In this document: positions 53,283 through 59,793 of the stretch, piece by piece
Layout of the letters: each line of letters begins with the position of its first letter
Numbering within the stretch: position 1 is the first letter of the stretch
Assembly: GCF_002192255.1 (NCBI RefSeq)
Contig: NZ_CP021768.1
Span: forward strand, 2,994,001-3,058,000
DNA: 64,000 nt
Origin: Stenotrophomonas sp. WZN-1
Lineage (GTDB): Bacteria; Pseudomonadota; Gammaproteobacteria; Xanthomonadales; Xanthomonadaceae
Reading direction: 5' to 3'
Position numbers and translations under genes: made by a program
Notes under the pieces: generated by a model
What the model was told of the DNA's origin: nothing
The model's input: only the letters and a program-made list of their open reading frames with translations
The model's database searches: none

Positions 53283-53486
53283 TCAGCCGTAACTGACCGC
53301 TTCGACGAATGCGCCGCTGGCCTCCACGCGCACGGCCGCACGCTGACCGGTGTCGACAAAGTGCAGGCGGGCCAGGGTCTCGGCGAAGTCATAGGCACGG
53401 GCGCCATCGCGGAACTCGATCGGCTCCGGCCGGTCCGGATGCACCACGCGCCACTGGCGCTGTTCGCATTGCAGGCGGATCAACAT
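53283..53486 (-). CDS. Small DUF2188-like protein (67 aa)
   Basis: Starts MLIRLQCEQRQWRVVHPDRP and ends VRVEASGAFVEAVSYG. A beta-alpha-beta-like small protein with the pattern of DUF2188 family members (W-V-x near the N-terminus, an amphipathic Ala/Leu helix, VRVEAxG at the end). AAGGAG precedes the ATG at 53486; the longer upstream reading has none. A relative lies at 59536-59793. A GTAGAGCCCCGCCATGCGTGGATGGCGG repeat remnant lies beyond its stop (53221-53248). Confidence 0.65.
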   Translation of the reverse strand: MLIRLQCEQRQWRVVHPDRPEPIEFRDGARAYDFAETLARLHFVDTGQRAAVRVEASGAFVEAVSYG

Positions 53487-54218: not shown

Positions 54219-54345
54219 CGAGATCTCCAGATGAATACGATGGCGCAAGCATCCGGGATTCACGGCCCGGCGCACAGAGGGGGGCGCAACGGCAGTTTTT
54301 CCCCATTCAAACAACGCAACCGGACCTGACTGGACCGCAGTGAGC

Positions 54346-55017
54346 TCATGGGCTCCCGTTTGCTGCCCCACTGGCCGTGCCACCGGCATTGCCCAGGCGC
54401 TCCTCGAACGCATAGGCGAACAGCTCGGCATCATTGCTGATGCCCAGTTTCCTCATCGCCGAAATGCGTTGCCGGCTGATGGTACTGACGGTACGCCGCA
54501 GCCGCCCGGCGATCTCTGTGATCGAAGGCCCCGACACATACAGCCGCAGGACTTCCAGTTCCTTGGGCGACAACACCGAAAGCGATCGCTCGCGCCCACC
54601 GTCCTGCAGGCAGTGCGCCAACTGGGGGTCCAGGTAAATCCCCCCGCTCAACACGGTATCGACCGCCTTGCGGGTGCCATCCACGCAACTGCACTTCCAC
54701 ACCAGCCCGCGCACACCGGTACGCATGGCCATGTTCAAGGTGGTGGCATTGGTGATCATCGTGACCAGGATCACCGGCACCTTGGGGTAATTGCGACTCA
54801 ACGCCTGCAGCATCGCCTGGCCGTCCGAGCGGCCGACATCCGGCATCGAAAAATCAGTCACCACCAGATCCACCGGTTCTTCAGCCAGGATGGCCAGCAG
54901 GCTTTCTGCACATCGCGCCTCCGCCACCACGCGATGGCGCCCACCGGCCTCGATCACGATGCGCGTGCCAAGCAAGACCAGTGGATGATCATCCGCAATG
55001 GCAATTCGAGTGAGCAT
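54346..55017 (-). CDS. LuxR/NarL-family response regulator
   Basis: 223 aa. Receiver domain (1-125): IADDHPLV acidic pair, phospho-acceptor Asp in VVTDFSMPD (about 54), Thr in LVTM, and Lys in LVWKCS. The GerE-type HTH (about 150-210) reads LSPKELEVLRLYVSGPSITEIAGRL...STISRQRISAMRKLGI. The RcsB-like domain order and the DGQAMLQALSR helix resemble RcsB-type regulators of capsule and fimbriae. No kinase is adjacent. It is divergent from the GTPase operon across a 250-bp gap. Confidence 0.9.
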   Translation of the reverse strand: MLTRIAIADDHPLVLLGTRIVIEAGGRHRVVAEARCAESLLAILAEEPVDLVVTDFSMPDVGRSDGQAMLQALSRNYPKVPVILVTMITNATTLNMAMRTGVRGLVWKCSCVDGTRKAVDTVLSGGIYLDPQLAHCLQDGGRERSLSVLSPKELEVLRLYVSGPSITEIAGRLRRTVSTISRQRISAMRKLGISNDAELFAYAFEERLGNAGGTASGAANGSP

Positions 55018-55267
55018 GCTGATTACCCGTCAATAGTCACGCCGCAGTGCGCAGTGGAGACGCTAGTAATCATTCCAGGTTACGTCAACTTAATAATCGC
55101 TCACTGCAATTGATTTCATCGCAGCAGAAACATCCGGCCGATTCCATTAGTTGCAGAGCGCATCAAGAACACGAATGGCACAGCAGTTTTCCCAATAGTT
55201 TCATTCCAGAAAGCCAGGGGGGCCGCTTACAAAGTCAGCTCCGATCACTCGCTGCCCTGGACATCCC
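55018..55267. promoter_or_regulatory. AT-richer divergent control region before the GTPase operon
   Basis: 250 bp with visibly lower GC than its flanks, including ACTTAATAATCG and CAATTGATTTCATC. It must hold promoters for the leftward response regulator and the rightward operon. I see several weak -10-like boxes but no unambiguous pair. Confidence 0.4.
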
Positions 55268-55975
55268 ATGGTCCGTTTCCGTCGTCAACCGTTTGAGGAT
55301 CTGCAAGAGCCCTTTGAAGCAGAGCCACTGGCGCCGGCCGCATTGCCAACTGCCGCATTGCCGTTCGTACAGCAGTTGCGCCTGCACCTGGCAAGCGATG
55401 GCGCGCTGCCAAGGCGTTCGGCCCATGCCGCGATCATTCATGACGGGACTACCGTGTGCTGGCTGGACGCGAGGAACGACCGGATGATGACGACCGCACC
55501 CGCGCCGATCACGCTGGCAATGTTGCAGAGACTACTGGGCGACGCAGACCCTCGGCTGAGCCTGGTACCGGTGACACAGGAGGTCTTCGTGCAGCGCGCA
55601 ACGGTGTGCAGTAATGTTCCGCTGCGTCTGACGCTGTGGAACGTTGCCCTGGTCGCGGACGGGCACGGCGTTCCGATCCCGCCCCTGCAGGACTGCACGA
55701 AGTTGCGCCTCCGGCGTTGGCCAGACTTCCGCATCCTGGCCCATCGTCCCGATCACTTCCGGCTGTGCGCGCTGCTGATCAAGCAGGGTGCGTCCGTGCC
55801 GGCATGCTGCGACATCCTCGATCTGCCACGCCAATCCGTGCAGTCGTTCTTCAACGCAGCGTTCCTCACCGCCTATGCCTTTCCCGTCGTGGGCGAGGAC
55901 GCACCCGTGCGCCCCTCGCCCGCCGACGGCCTCGTCAATCTGTGGCGACAACTTCGCATCCGCTGGAGTGCATGA
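55268..55975 (+). CDS. Unknown protein heading the GTPase/roadblock operon (235 aa)
   Basis: No recognised family. The N-terminal ~30 residues are Pro/Ala/Glu-rich, followed by HAAIIHDGTTVCWLDARNDRM and a beta-rich centre (SNVPLRLTLWNVALVADGHG). The C-terminal third looks like a winged helix (RWPDFRILAHRPDHFRLCALLIKQGASVPACCDILDLPRQSVQSFFNAAFLTAYAF). The stop overlaps the GTPase start (ATGA), so the two are coupled. Possibly an adaptor between the GTPase and a regulator (inference). Confidence 0.75.
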   Translation: MVRFRRQPFEDLQEPFEAEPLAPAALPTAALPFVQQLRLHLASDGALPRRSAHAAIIHDGTTVCWLDARNDRMMTTAPAPITLAMLQRLLGDADPRLSLVPVTQEVFVQRATVCSNVPLRLTLWNVALVADGHGVPIPPLQDCTKLRLRRWPDFRILAHRPDHFRLCALLIKQGASVPACCDILDLPRQSVQSFFNAAFLTAYAFPVVGEDAPVRPSPADGLVNLWRQLRIRWSA

Positions 55976-56523
55976 CCGTGCGTGAGCACAAGATCGTAGT
56001 GATGGGCCCACTCGGCGCGGGCAAGTCCACCCTCGTGCAGACCCTGACCCAGGGCAGGGCCGTGGTGACGGAAGCCCGCAATACCGACCCTTCCGTGGGC
56101 AAGCAATACACCACCGTGGCCATGGACTATGGCGACATCGACCTGCCAGGTGGCGACCGCCTGCGCCTGTACGGATCGCCTGGGCAGGAACGCTTCTCCT
56201 ATATCTGGCCAATCCTGCTGGCCGGTGCAGAAGGTGCCATCGTTCTGATCGATGGCAGCGCCAACGTGGGCACCACGCTGGCCGGGCGGCATCTGAGAGC
56301 CATCGCCGAAAGCGCACCGGGCCTGCCCGTGGTCATCGGCTTCACCCGATGCGGCAGCACCGATGATCCGGTACAGCCGCACTGGCAGGACTGGCTGCAG
56401 GACCATGCGCCACACCTGCCGGCATTGCCGCTGGACCCACGCGACATGGCGCAGGCCATCATTGCGATGGATCTGCTGATGAGCCAGATCGAATGCAATG
56501 CCATGGCGGCCGCCCATGAATGA
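55972..56523 (+). CDS. Ras-like small GTPase (MglA/CvnD-like)
   Basis: 183 aa. P-loop GPLGAGKST (residues 12-20), a switch I region with Thr in KQYTTVAMDYG, and G3 as YGSPGQERFSYIW (Gln retained, Asp replaced by Ser). The G4 position reads IGFTRCGS rather than NKxD, as in the divergent prokaryotic GTPases of conservon-type operons. Guanine specificity is therefore uncertain. It has roadblock partners directly downstream, as MglA has MglB. It overlaps both neighbours. Confidence 0.85.
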   Translation: MTVREHKIVVMGPLGAGKSTLVQTLTQGRAVVTEARNTDPSVGKQYTTVAMDYGDIDLPGGDRLRLYGSPGQERFSYIWPILLAGAEGAIVLIDGSANVGTTLAGRHLRAIAESAPGLPVVIGFTRCGSTDDPVQPHWQDWLQDHAPHLPALPLDPRDMAQAIIAMDLLMSQIECNAMAAAHE

Positions 56524-56887
56524 CATCGACCGCACATCGGCACTCGACGCGCTGGTACACGATGTCACCGGCATCCAGGCGCTCGTCGTTGCCAGCACTG
56601 ATGGTTTCGCCCTGGCCCAGGCCGGCCCGAAGGGCCATGTCGCCGATCGCCTGGCCGCGATGACCAGCTCGATGCTCGGCCTGGCCAGTGCGCTGGGTCG
56701 CGAACTGCACTTCGGTGAACTCGACACACTCATCCTCGATGCCGCCAACGGCAAGGTACTGATGCTCGCCATTCCAGGGAAGCAACCGCGCCTGCTGATG
56801 ACGGCGTGCGATCACAGCTGCGTCATCGGCAACGTGCTGTGGCATGCCAAGCAGTGCGTGCGCGCATTGGCCAACACCCCGACCTGA
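56516..56887 (+). CDS. Roadblock/LC7-domain protein 1 (123 aa)
   Basis: MglB-like alpha/beta roadblock fold: LDALVHDVTGIQALVVASTDGFALAQAG, an MTSSMLGLASALGRELHF helix, then LILDAANGKVLMLAIPGKQPRLLMTACDHSCVIGNVLWHAKQCVRAL. Expected to regulate the GTPase as a GAP or GEF dimer (family knowledge). Its start overlaps the GTPase stop by 8 bp; an in-frame ATG at 56498 would deepen the overlap. Confidence 0.85.
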   Translation: MNDIDRTSALDALVHDVTGIQALVVASTDGFALAQAGPKGHVADRLAAMTSSMLGLASALGRELHFGELDTLILDAANGKVLMLAIPGKQPRLLMTACDHSCVIGNVLWHAKQCVRALANTPT

Positions 56888-56950
56888 TACATGCCTCTCT
56901 CAGTACTCAGACGCCTCTTCACCCCCTCACACCCGCAACGGACCACTGAA

Positions 56951-57313
56951 ATGAATATCGCCATCAACAAATGCCTGGACACGCTCATGCAGATCAACGG
57001 CGCGCAAGCCGTTGCCCTGGTCGACTTCGAAAGCGGCATGCTGCTGGGTAACGCCGGCTCGGGCGTGGACATGGAACTGGCGGCAGCTGGAAACACCGAG
57101 GTGCTGCGCGCCAAGATGAAAACGGCCGAAGCGCTGAACCTCAACGACAACATTGAAGACGTGCTGATCACGCTGGGTCGGGCGTATCACGTACTGCGCC
57201 CGGTATCGGCCAAAAAGGGCCTGTTCTTCTATGTCGTGCTGGACCGGCAGAAGGCAAATCTTGCCCTCGCCCGGCGCATCGTACTGGACGTGGAAAGTTC
57301 GTTGGCGCTGTAG
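56951..57313 (+). CDS. Roadblock-like protein 2 (120 aa)
   Basis: MNIAINKCLDTLMQINGAQAVALVDFESGMLLGNAGSG opens a second, more divergent roadblock-type fold, ending FFYVVLDRQKANLALARRIVLDVESSLAL. Starting at 56951 gives the domain alone; an in-frame ATG at 56891 would add 20 residues (LSVLRRLFTPSHPQ) and is possible. Two different roadblock proteins per GTPase may allow a heterodimer. A hairpin follows at 57345. Confidence 0.75.
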   Translation: MNIAINKCLDTLMQINGAQAVALVDFESGMLLGNAGSGVDMELAAAGNTEVLRAKMKTAEALNLNDNIEDVLITLGRAYHVLRPVSAKKGLFFYVVLDRQKANLALARRIVLDVESSLAL

Positions 57314-57344
57314 CGCGAGGCAACGATAGACAGGGGATCGGAAC

Positions 57345-57376
57345 GCCGGGGCTGCTCTGGGGAGAGCGGCCCCGGC
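57345..57376. terminator. Stem-loop between roadblock 2 and the pilin-like genes
   Basis: GCCGGGGCTGCTCT-GGGG-AGAGCGGCCCCGGC: a 14-bp stem with one G-U pair and a GGGG loop. There is no T tract, so it may attenuate or process rather than terminate between the operon halves. Confidence 0.5.
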
Positions 57377-57421
57377 CTGTGTTGCGCCGCGCGCCGTTCT
57401 CAACCGCAGGAGCTGCCGTCC

Positions 57422-57868
57422 ATGCGCTCTCGATCAACCACCCAGTCGACACGTCGCCCTCGACACTACCGGCCATGGGCGTCGGTCAGCATCGTCGCCG
57501 GACTGACAGCCATCTACGCACTACTGTTGTGTGCGCCCCGCTTGGATAGCGATGCCAGCCACACCCGGCTGCGCGACGAGGCCAGTGTGCTGGGCGGCGC
57601 CATCGCCGCGGTGGAAAACAGTTACGCCGAAGGCGATCTCACCGTGACCGACCAGCATCTGGGCCTGCCGGCCAGCACCACACACTGCGCGCGCCTGCGC
57701 GCCTCGCTCCCCGATACCGGCCGCGCAGTGCTGACCTGTAACCTGCGCCAGGAGGGCAGCGTGCGGTGGCGGCGAACCCCTGCGGGCGAATGGCGATGCA
57801 CTGCAAGCACAGCCGCTGTGCATGCAGCGCCGACGCCGTGCCCCAAGGAGCTACGGCGCACGTTCTGA
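57422..57868 (+). CDS. Membrane-anchored pilin-head protein lacking a prepilin leader (148 aa)
   Basis: A basic N-terminus and one TM segment (about 20-38, SVSIVAGLTAIYALLLCAP), then a domain matching the globular part of the next two pilins: SVLGGAIAAVENSYAEGDL, LGLPASTTHC and EWRC. The four cysteines are spaced C-x16-C-x19-C-x13-C, against x16/17 and x13 in the neighbours. The Gly-Phe-Ser-Leu-Ile-Glu prepilin site is absent, so it cannot be a normal PilD substrate. Role unknown; perhaps a membrane decoy, chaperone or assembly gate for the pilins (inference). Confidence 0.7.
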   Translation: MRSRSTTQSTRRPRHYRPWASVSIVAGLTAIYALLLCAPRLDSDASHTRLRDEASVLGGAIAAVENSYAEGDLTVTDQHLGLPASTTHCARLRASLPDTGRAVLTCNLRQEGSVRWRRTPAGEWRCTASTAAVHAAPTPCPKELRRTF

Positions 57869-58021
57869 TTACCTGCAAAACAATCGTGCAGTTACTCAAC
57901 AGGTTCGACTTTACCAGTTCTTGAATATACCCACTGCTGCACACGTGATTTTCTATGACTGCGCCACGAATGATCGTTTCGTGGCCGAACCCAGGAAACC
58001 ACCATGTCACAGAGGATTATC

Positions 58022-58477
58022 ATGAATACCGTACTCGACCCGGCCGCCCGCGCAGGCACAGGCCCATCCCGGCAGAAGGGCTTTTCCCTCATTGAGCTCA
58101 TGGTGGTGGTGGCGATCATCGGGATTCTGGGGATGATTGCCTTGCCGCAGTACCAGCGGTTCGCGGCCAAGGCAAAGTTGGCGGGCGCCCTCGCAGAAGT
58201 TGCCGGTGGAAAAGTTGGCGTTGAATCACTCCTCGCCGAGGGCAGCGAGATCACCACGTCGGCATCGATTGGCCTGCCCGAATCAAGCTCCCGCTGTACC
58301 TGGATTACGGTGACAAGCGATGTCACGAATGGAGCTACGAGCATCAACTGCGTGCTCAAGAGCGACGCTGCAATCGGCAGTGGCAACCTGACCTTGGATC
58401 GCGACTCGCAGGGAGTCTGGCTCTGCAGGAGCGACGTTTCAGACCAGAGCCTCCTTCCCCACGGTTGCCAGGGCTGA
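58022..58477 (+). CDS. Type IV pilin-like protein A
   Basis: 151 aa. A class III leader of about 20 residues ends in Gly before FSLIELMVVVAIIGILGMIALPQY, with the conserved Glu5. The head domain has Cys at C-x17-C-x24-C-x13-C and the LGLPES-like IGLPESSSRC. An AGAGGA box supports the ATG at 58022; an in-frame ATG at 58004 (AGGAAA box) is also possible. Exported, cleaved and methylated by PilD, then assembled into a type IV pilus or a pseudopilus; no other pil genes are here. Confidence 0.88.
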   Translation: MNTVLDPAARAGTGPSRQKGFSLIELMVVVAIIGILGMIALPQYQRFAAKAKLAGALAEVAGGKVGVESLLAEGSEITTSASIGLPESSSRCTWITVTSDVTNGATSINCVLKSDAAIGSGNLTLDRDSQGVWLCRSDVSDQSLLPHGCQG

Positions 58478-58587
58478 TCGCACACGCATGCCACTACGCA
58501 GATTGCCAGGCATGCAATCAGTTGCATGCGTCTCCCCATTGGGTGCGCCGACCGCGATTCAACGTTGATTTCCTCATGGAGGAACCG

Positions 58588-59070
58588 ATGAGCAAGAAAA
58601 TCTCAGAGGCCGGCTGCGCGTTGACGCGTACACGCCGGCAGCGAGGGCTCTCTCTGGTCGAACTCATGGTGGTCGTAGCCATCATTGCAGTTCTTTCCCT
58701 GATCGCAGTCCCGCAATACAAGAAGTTCTCTACCAAAGCCAAGCTGGCGGCGGCGTTGGCCGAGCTGGCCGGCGGGAAGGCAGGAGTGGAGGCGTGGCTG
58801 GCCGAACGGGGGGATTTCTATGGCTCAGACAACCGCAAGCTGGGACTACCGGAGAGCAGTGAGCGCTGTGAAACCATCGCGGCAAGCTATCGTGCAGATG
58901 GCGGCTTCGAGATCGATTGCCTGCTGCGATTCGATGCTGGCTACAACCTGGGGAAATGGCGAAGCAACCTGGTGCTGATCATGGACACGCGCAGCCGTGA
59001 ATGGCGCTGCTGGACTAACATCCCCTATTACGACCTCCTGCCCAAAGGCTGTGGCCCCAACAATCCATAG
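58588..59070 (+). CDS. Type IV pilin-like protein B
   Basis: 160 aa. Leader of 20 residues ending RRQRG before LSLVELMVVVAIIAVLSLIAVPQY. Cys at C-x16-C-x29-C-x13-C. Very similar to protein A through the N-terminal helix and AKLAAALAELAGGKAGVEAWLAE, so a tandem duplication is likely. A strong GGAGGA site precedes the ATG. The head loop between Cys2 and Cys3 is longer and differs in charge, consistent with a distinct surface. Confidence 0.88.
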   Translation: MSKKISEAGCALTRTRRQRGLSLVELMVVVAIIAVLSLIAVPQYKKFSTKAKLAAALAELAGGKAGVEAWLAERGDFYGSDNRKLGLPESSERCETIAASYRADGGFEIDCLLRFDAGYNLGKWRSNLVLIMDTRSREWRCWTNIPYYDLLPKGCGPNNP

Positions 59071-59075
59071 CCTTC

Positions 59076-59567
59076 ATGCACATACCTCAAGCTGTTGACG
59101 CTTTGCCGCTCCATTCAGGCAGCGGCGCCTGCGAAAACCGGTCATCCCCGGTCCCCACCCTCGTCATCGCCGATGCAAATCCCTGGATCCGACGCGAACT
59201 GATACACGGCGCCCTCCCCTACCTGGGCGGCAAAGCGCTCGGCGAAGCACGCTCGCCCGCAGATGTTCTGACCCAGATTGCCAGCCCGCGATGCAAGGCA
59301 CTGATCATCGATCCCTGCATGCCGACTGTGGGCCAGGTTGACGGCATGCCACTGCTGCGCCGCATCTGCTGCCTGCGCAGGGATCTGCTCATCCTCGTCC
59401 TGGCTCAACAACCCTTGCGCGTATTGCAGGATCGCGCCCTGCCGGCGCAGATCGGTCATGTCTATGCCAAGACGGTCAATCCGTCCTGGCTGTGCCATTT
59501 CGTAAGCCAGGCAGTACGCGAGGGACCATCTGGCGTTACGCCACCGGCGCAGGATGCAGCCCGATAA
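59076..59567 (+). CDS. Stand-alone receiver domain, RcsB-like (163 aa)
   Basis: VIADANPWIRRELIHGALPYLGG, then ALIIDPCMPTVGQVDGMPLLRRICCLRRDLLILVLAQQP matches the receiver of the response regulator at 54346-55017 (IADDHPLV..., VVTDFSMPDVGRSDGQAMLQALSR) over its length. The phospho-acceptor Asp is kept (IIDP), one of the two upstream acidic residues is changed, and there is no output HTH. Likely a partner, decoy or phosphate sink for that regulator. The gene end overlaps the convergent small gene by 32 bp. Confidence 0.7.
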   Translation: MHIPQAVDALPLHSGSGACENRSSPVPTLVIADANPWIRRELIHGALPYLGGKALGEARSPADVLTQIASPRCKALIIDPCMPTVGQVDGMPLLRRICCLRRDLLILVLAQQPLRVLQDRALPAQIGHVYAKTVNPSWLCHFVSQAVREGPSGVTPPAQDAAR

Positions 59568-59793
59568 CCGGCCCGGAGGCAATCGCCAACGCCTCGAAGT
59601 GCACGGCATCCACGCTGTTGCCCAGCGCTTCCACGCGCACTGTGGCGCCCTGGCCGGTCCGGCGGTGGTGGGCGCTGGCCCGGCCAACCGCGGCATCGAA
59701 CGCTGCGGCGCCTGTGTTGAATGCTTCAGCCACGCCCTCAGCCGGGTCCAACAGGGACCACTGCGCGGCATTGCACTTGACGGTAATGACCAT
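59536..59793 (-). CDS. Small DUF2188-like protein (85 aa)
   Basis: Starts MVITVKCNAAQWSLLDPAEG and contains TGQGATVRVEALGNSVDAVHFEA, the same C-terminal pattern as the 67-aa protein at 53283-53486 (GQRAAVRVEASGAFVEAVSYG). An AAGGAG box precedes the ATG. It has an additional ~17-residue tail. It closes the 53-60 kb block on the far side from its relative. Confidence 0.65.
   Translation of the reverse strand: MVITVKCNAAQWSLLDPAEGVAEAFNTGAAAFDAAVGRASAHHRRTGQGATVRVEALGNSVDAVHFEALAIASGPVIGLHPAPVA

Follow-up and report, generated by a model that had tools for sequence, protein, structure and literature searches.

The window analyzed here, a 64,000-nucleotide stretch (positions 2994001-3058000) of the complete 4.51-Mb genome of Stenotrophomonas sp. 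WZN-1, contains a discrete island of about 5.2 kb (54346-59567) that occupies a single site in the genomes carrying it. Its nine genes encode an RcsB-like response regulator, a cassette of a Ras-like small GTPase and its companion proteins, three pilin-domain proteins and a lone receiver. A 17-bp motif is common to the control regions of the cassette and of the prepilins, and this tie between cassette and pilins at the level of regulation is far better supported than the function of the island, for which a role in setting the make-up or use of pili stands about evenly balanced. The recurrence of the unit in 10 of the 91 Stenotrophomonas genomes surveyed, together with ratios of nonsynonymous to synonymous substitution (dN/dS) below 1 throughout, argues that the island is more than a chance arrangement. 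All nine genes lie where an earlier note on this DNA had placed them. That note did not recognize the combination; the GTPase cassette itself belongs to a class already described (PMC4316618), whereas its partnership with the regulator, the pilins and the lone receiver is new.

Control regions of the cassette and the prepilins

Alignment of the intergenic region between the regulator gene and the gene for the 235-residue first protein of the cassette with the region before the first prepilin gene revealed the 17-bp motif. Site A, TTTCCCAATAGTTTCAT (55188-55204, plus strand), lies upstream of the cassette, and site B, TTTACCAGTTCTTGAAT (57910-57926, plus strand), upstream of the first prepilin gene. 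By eye, -10-like elements were recognized on the same strand at 55228-55233 and 57951-57956, 40 and 41 bp from the starts of sites A and B, respectively; this spacing would put the end of the motif immediately 5' of the -35 region, as expected of an activator site. Allowing two mismatches to the shared pattern, all 10 island copies have site A and eight have site B, the counterparts of site B in genomes G099 and G109 being recognized by alignment only. The -10-like elements recur at the same spacing in the other copies, although those of G109 (site A) and G099 (site B) are poor, and in the site A region the element aligns without gaps across the 10 copies. Ordinary sigma-70 promoters were rejected by a consensus scan, which returned no -35/-10 pair against a shuffle mean of 1.5.

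A matrix built from the 20 island sites was applied with a score threshold of 12. In each of four rearranged copies of the block (described below), all outside the training set, its best match (18.9-28.6) falls upstream of a cassette or prepilin gene, and these loci hold further matches of at least 12 (two in G023, three in G106, one in the first and three in the second copy of G072). Matches at this threshold were absent from nine related cassettes located between aceK and icd and from 143 kb of other fetched sequence (12 stretches). Across the WZN-1 genome, the pattern with at most one mismatch yields four matches, two of them in the island, compared with none in the reversed control; the remaining two are a site, TTTTCCAAGAATTCGAT, that recurs in many genomes among the matches listed, and one inside an open frame.

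Six chosen genomes (WZN-1, G017, G086, G023, G106 and G072) were searched with a looser version of the motif, TTTNNNANTNNTTGCAT; there were 31 matches, of which 30 were read, versus one in the reversed control. The matches include positions before the cassette (G106 and G072) and before prepilin genes (G023, G072 and G106). In G106 and G072, a pilin gene situated away from the cassette is preceded, at a distance of 110 bp, by the looser motif; both unlinked pilins score above the PF00114 cut-off, and their identity to the first prepilin of the window is 48.5% in G106 and 31.6% in G072. Because the unlinked pilins and the cassettes both carry it, cassette and pilins keep one motif when separated.

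A GC-rich hairpin (57345-57376, plus strand) follows the cassette, 3' of the second roadblock gene, and is present in all 10 copies, with a T run after it only in that of G109. Taken alone, the hairpin of the window is unexceptional (z = -1.4; 18 of 200 shuffles fold equally well). A combined scan for sigma-70 promoters and terminators returned a single terminator-like site, on the minus strand and distinct from this hairpin. The conserved hairpin and the prepilins' own conserved upstream site make a single operon unlikely and suggest that cassette and prepilins form separate transcripts.

The GTPase cassette

The cassette comprises four plus-strand genes. The first (55268-55975) encodes the 235-residue protein, in which an N-terminal domain and a predicted C-terminal winged helix were recognized from alignment A1, made with the mostly longer proteins of the aceK/icd type, and from an AlphaFold model. 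It is followed by the Group 3 MglA-like GTPase (55972-56523), identified by Pfam, NCBIfam and its G-motifs (alignment A3), by roadblock protein 1 (56516-56887; Robl_LC7, 46.4 bits) and by roadblock-like protein 2 (56891-57313, with a possible alternative start at 56951), assigned by position, conservation and a weak match to the solved roadblock protein 7yh1 (E = 0.021). Of the two roadblock proteins claimed earlier, only the first has a Pfam roadblock match. The overlapping gene set described in the earlier note holds for the 235-residue protein and GTPase genes (4 nt) and for the GTPase and roadblock 1 genes (8 nt), and the roadblock genes do not overlap each other.

PMC4316618 describes Group 3 MglA systems in Stenotrophomonas, Xanthomonas and Neisseria, with the gene order unknown protein, MglA and one or two MglB, and with GTPases that often lack the G4 lysine and possess a conserved G5 arginine. 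The island cassette shares this order, with roadblock 2 weakly recognized, and these features: its G4 motif (FTRCG) has no lysine, and its G5 motif (LDPRD) contains an arginine, R157, that is invariant in the 17 aligned GTPases. G5 reads DPR in the island GTPase, compared with DAR in PMC4316618. The same source states that the conserved N-terminal region of the Group 3 unknown protein is receiver-like. The 235-residue protein lacks most of this region, unlike its described Group 3 counterparts, and the cassette was therefore filed, on its sequence features, as a variant of the described Group 3 MglA class. Consistently, eight of the nine counterparts from the aceK/icd-type cassettes are longer (322-427 residues, as longest open frames), the short one (L041) having 227. 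What is new is the short form of the first protein and the coupling of the cassette to an RcsB-like regulator, pilins and a lone receiver, with a promoter motif common to cassette and pilins.

The nearest named relatives of the 235-residue protein come from Stenotrophomonas maltophilia, and nothing in Pfam (E <= 1) or NCBIfam (E <= 0.1) matched it. In its AlphaFold model (predicted local distance difference test, pLDDT, 78.5), the C-terminal half is predicted to be a winged helix. Foldseek returned no match at E <= 0.001 for either the whole protein or the N-terminal domain alone, and a likeness to GATOR1 in the structure comparison of the model may serve as a weak lead. Profile comparison detected no roadblock-like fold in the N-terminal half, by a method that could not link roadblocks 1 and 2 either, so that this negative carries no weight.

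Regulator, pilin-domain proteins and lone receiver

The regulator (54346-55017, minus strand) combines a receiver and a LuxR-type helix-turn-helix (GerE) domain, as assigned by Pfam. RcsB and related NarL-type regulators are its closest solved and curated relatives, RcsB providing the best solved ones (E = 5e-29), and the phosphorylation residues of its receiver are intact (alignment A4). Its score against the NCBIfam RcsB model, 117 bits versus a cut-off of 235, makes it RcsB-like rather than RcsB. No kinase gene adjoins it within the island. In the rearranged G023 copy, a hybrid kinase does adjoin the regulator, and the best WZN-1 match of that kinase (genome positions 194477-197923; 52% over 1150 residues) adjoins a second RcsB-like regulator about 45% identical to that of the island; this paralogue has an adjoining kinase, whereas the island regulator has none. 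The kinase at 194477-197923 is accordingly a candidate input to the island regulator, as judged from sequence relationships. The stretch containing it (L218:5730-10043, about 193730-198043 of the WZN-1 genome) encodes the RcsB-like regulator and a 1185-residue hybrid kinase with solute-binding domains. Similar frames of 213 residues constitute weak relatives of the lone receiver in many genomes of the genus.

Three plus-strand pilin-domain genes follow the cassette, as the earlier note had it, two of which encode prepilins. The product of the first (57422-57868) scores 25.4 bits against the Pfam Pilin model (cut-off 22) and has a transmembrane segment, recognized by eye; it has no N_methyl match and no prepilin cleavage site, and is described here as a membrane-anchored pilin-like protein. 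The second (58004-58477; GFSLIE site; Pilin 65 bits, N_methyl 39.7 bits), of major-pilin type, and the third (58585-59070; GLSLVE site; Pilin 39 bits, N_methyl 33.9 bits) combine a class III prepilin site with a pilin domain, as type IVa pilins do. Island copies hold two or three prepilins, and the anchored protein is present in eight of the 10, being missing from G099 and G109. The closest pilins to the first prepilin outside the island are two PilA copies (40% and 36%). A minor-pilin tip, one of the options raised earlier, was rejected because the prepilins resemble major pilins, matching PF00114 and having a PilA pair as nearest non-island relatives.

The last gene (59076-59567, plus strand) encodes a degenerate lone receiver, at 19.8 bits against a Response_reg cut-off of 30.2. 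What we take to be its phospho-Asp and Lys positions are kept, and the presumed second acidic and Thr/Ser positions are lost (alignment A4).

Distribution and conservation

Among the 91 genomes, the 235-residue protein is matched in 71, in two kinds. The window type occurs at 14 places in 13 genomes (E <= 1.1e-44), and matches of the weaker kind begin at E = 1.2e-26. All nine weaker-kind cassettes read, including that of WZN-1, stand between aceK and icd, genes assigned by Pfam families in the WZN-1 genome, compared with none of the 13 window-type stretches searched. The WZN-1 example (L033:6897-9225, genome positions 4051897-4054225) constitutes a second Group 3 GTPase cassette, and its position beside aceK and icd suggests a link to isocitrate metabolism.

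The block is conserved in relatives: 10 of the 13 window-type genomes carry the full set (regulator, cassette, two or more prepilins, lone receiver) at the dxs site. The lone receiver is matched at E <= 2e-18 in exactly these 10, the next match having E = 1.6e-6. The rearranged copies are of three kinds: that of G023 comprises a hybrid kinase, the regulator, one prepilin and the cassette; that of G106 and the first of G072 comprise regulator and cassette with no pilin beside them; and the second of G072 (L107), which is the same stretch as L132 from Stenotrophomonas sp. BIGb0135, comprises a prepilin and the cassette.

The island is present or absent as a whole. From the DUF3011 gene to the next small gene, the distance is 138-144 bp in seven of the 10 non-carriers fetched, and the spacer of G078 is about 158 bp; in G029 the block is absent and the local gene order different, and G062 is uninformative as its dxs lies outside the fetched stretch. 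Carriers have 5.1-6.0 kb between the flank genes in nine measurable genomes, and the gap of G109 was read from the gene map. Trees of five block proteins and of four flank proteins are congruent for the carriers, save that G100 and G109 pair with weak support. In the flank tree, carriers are interleaved with the eight non-carriers included, a pattern better explained by ancient presence followed by repeated losses, or by exchange at this site, than by a single recent acquisition.

Selection was assessed as NG86 dN/dS for five pairings of four closely related carriers. Every island gene gives a ratio under 1 in each pairing: values run from 0.07 to 0.22 across the regulator and the four cassette genes and from 0.15 to 0.57 across the three pilin-domain genes and the lone-receiver gene, with 0.01-0.04 for dxs. 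The switch is conserved, and the surface parts are faster-changing yet constrained.

Proposed function and alternatives

The block looks like a self-contained, switchable unit of pilus proteins. Our best reading, at even odds, is an alternative-pilin unit that the regulator controls, that carries a GTPase switch of its own and that relies on the housekeeping pilus machine. An unlinked hybrid kinase, possibly that at 194477-197923, would phosphorylate the RcsB-like regulator, which would bind the motif, immediately 5' of the -35 region, and turn on both the 235-residue protein, GTPase and roadblock genes and the prepilin and lone-receiver genes. The common PilD would cut the prepilins, and the housekeeping machine would build them into pili. 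Set by the two roadblocks, the GTPase may act at the pilus machine to tune both the timing and the location of the formation of these pili, by analogy with MglA/MglB of Myxococcus. The anchored pilin-like protein, sensing or holding membrane pilin, and the lone receiver, pairing with or titrating the regulator, could be feedback parts.

Pilus control by the island is thus what we infer. The earlier suggestion that the block controls a pilus encoded elsewhere is reasonable at this level, because the island holds no pilus assembly genes, as that note had observed, PilB, PilC, PilD and PilS/PilR family genes are found elsewhere in the genome, and the motif is common to the pilin and GTPase genes. 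A more specific version, which we consider rather unlikely, is a pilus-identity switch of a new kind: gated by one response regulator, the island would let the bacterium swap in fast-evolving alternative major pilins, and a dedicated Ras-like GTPase would direct the housekeeping machine to them. Type IV pili are the receptor of Stenotrophomonas phages DLP1 and DLP2, according to PMC6024842; were the identity switch true, pilin exchange could also mean escape from pilus-binding phages.

Several observations weigh against an alternative-pilin unit of this kind. Among 80 GTPase-relative loci from named genomes, a collection that may omit genomes near that of the window, relatives of the window's prepilin were found by tblastn within 3 kb in only one (L132) and regulator relatives in two; neither link is therefore a general feature of Group 3. 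When the 80 loci were scanned for reading frames of prepilin type, five had one within about 9 kb, of which that of L166 looks spurious, and a general pilin link of Group 3 was likewise ruled out. The bare pattern with at most one mismatch occurs in 83 of the 91 genomes, which excludes the motif as an island-only signal; the specific signal is motif position plus matrix score. In the second G072 copy, no regulator stands beside the cassette and the motif points the opposite way. Autotransporter-type genes (by Pfam, in WZN-1 and G072) and an usher operon (G072) have the looser motif before them as well, and other RcsB-like regulators may therefore read it. Finally, the choice of the regulator as reader of the motif, in preference to the 235-residue protein with its predicted winged helix, depends on the lack of the motif in the aceK/icd cassettes, which have a first protein of this kind too and no such regulator.

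The last point bears on an alternative that we regard as unlikely, namely that the cassette acts on transcription, with the 235-residue protein as the DNA-binding output of the GTPase, reading the motif alone or with the regulator, and the pilins as one target. The predicted winged helix speaks for it, as does the transcriptional role for Group 3 proposed by Wuichet and Sogaard-Andersen (2014; PMC4316618). Equally improbable to us is a mere neighborhood of co-regulated adhesins, in which the regulator, GTPase and pilin genes are clustered as targets of one RcsB-type adhesion regulon and the GTPase does not act on these pilins. The looser motif before autotransporters, the usher operon and a kinase (that of G023) in related genomes points in this direction, and the shared motif looks to lie within a wider adhesion regulon, although several genes with no evident adhesion link, including that of an AraC-type regulator, are preceded by it as well. 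Against such a neighborhood, exactly this gene set forms a unit in 10 genomes, and the pairing of cassette and pilins is repeated, adjacent or unlinked, under the same motif. That the prepilins are pseudopilins for type II secretion or DNA uptake is very improbable: N-terminal matches to pseudopilin models, all below cut-off, speak for it, whereas PF00114 matches span the whole pilin domain and the PilA pair nearest to them lies beside pilB, pilC and pilD genes.

The alternative-pilin unit resembles the MglA/MglB/RomR polarity switch of Myxococcus xanthus (PMC4316618), which likewise joins a small GTPase to roadblock and response-regulator partners and sets type IV pilus activity. The Myxococcus GTPase belongs to a different group, and mglA lies away from the genes encoding its response-regulator partners. 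Closer in class is the Group 3 mgl locus of Snodgrassella, where mutation of an orphan mglB alters pilus-dependent motility and gut colonization, an observation in favor of pilus control by the island; unlike the island, it has no pilin or regulator linkage in the description taken from PMC11112851. No title or abstract among the matches listed for open-licence papers concerned this island.

Reports of Group 3 systems come almost exclusively from beta- and gammaproteobacteria, and in the sources used here (PMC4316618 and PMC11112851) their output is largely uncharacterized, the motility effect in Snodgrassella being the one functional lead. For one such system the island supplies pilins as candidate outputs, together with a candidate regulator and a defined promoter motif, which makes its function testable in a single organism, where the aceK/icd cassette of the same genome is a built-in control.

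Flanks and further observations

As an all-or-none block, the island extends from about 54320 to 59590, between the DUF3011 gene and a small gene with an end at 59536, its ends being placed by eye. Its G+C content is 62.1%, versus 67.4% for the remaining window. The left flank comprises the DUF3011 gene and what we take to be dxs, and the right flank small conserved genes and a presumed clpP-like gene. Two short related proteins (53283-53486 and 59536-59793; 67 and 85 residues, about 40% alike) enclose the DUF3011 gene and the island, and at empty sites the same pair encloses the DUF3011 gene alone.

Elsewhere in the WZN-1 genome, the looser motif lies between the members of a divergent pair of autotransporter-type genes (L249:4907-10882, genome positions 714907-720882), which possibly belongs to the same adhesion regulon. 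In three genomes (L246, L248 and L243), it lies between a small conserved gene and a gene that we take to be methylglyoxal synthase-like.

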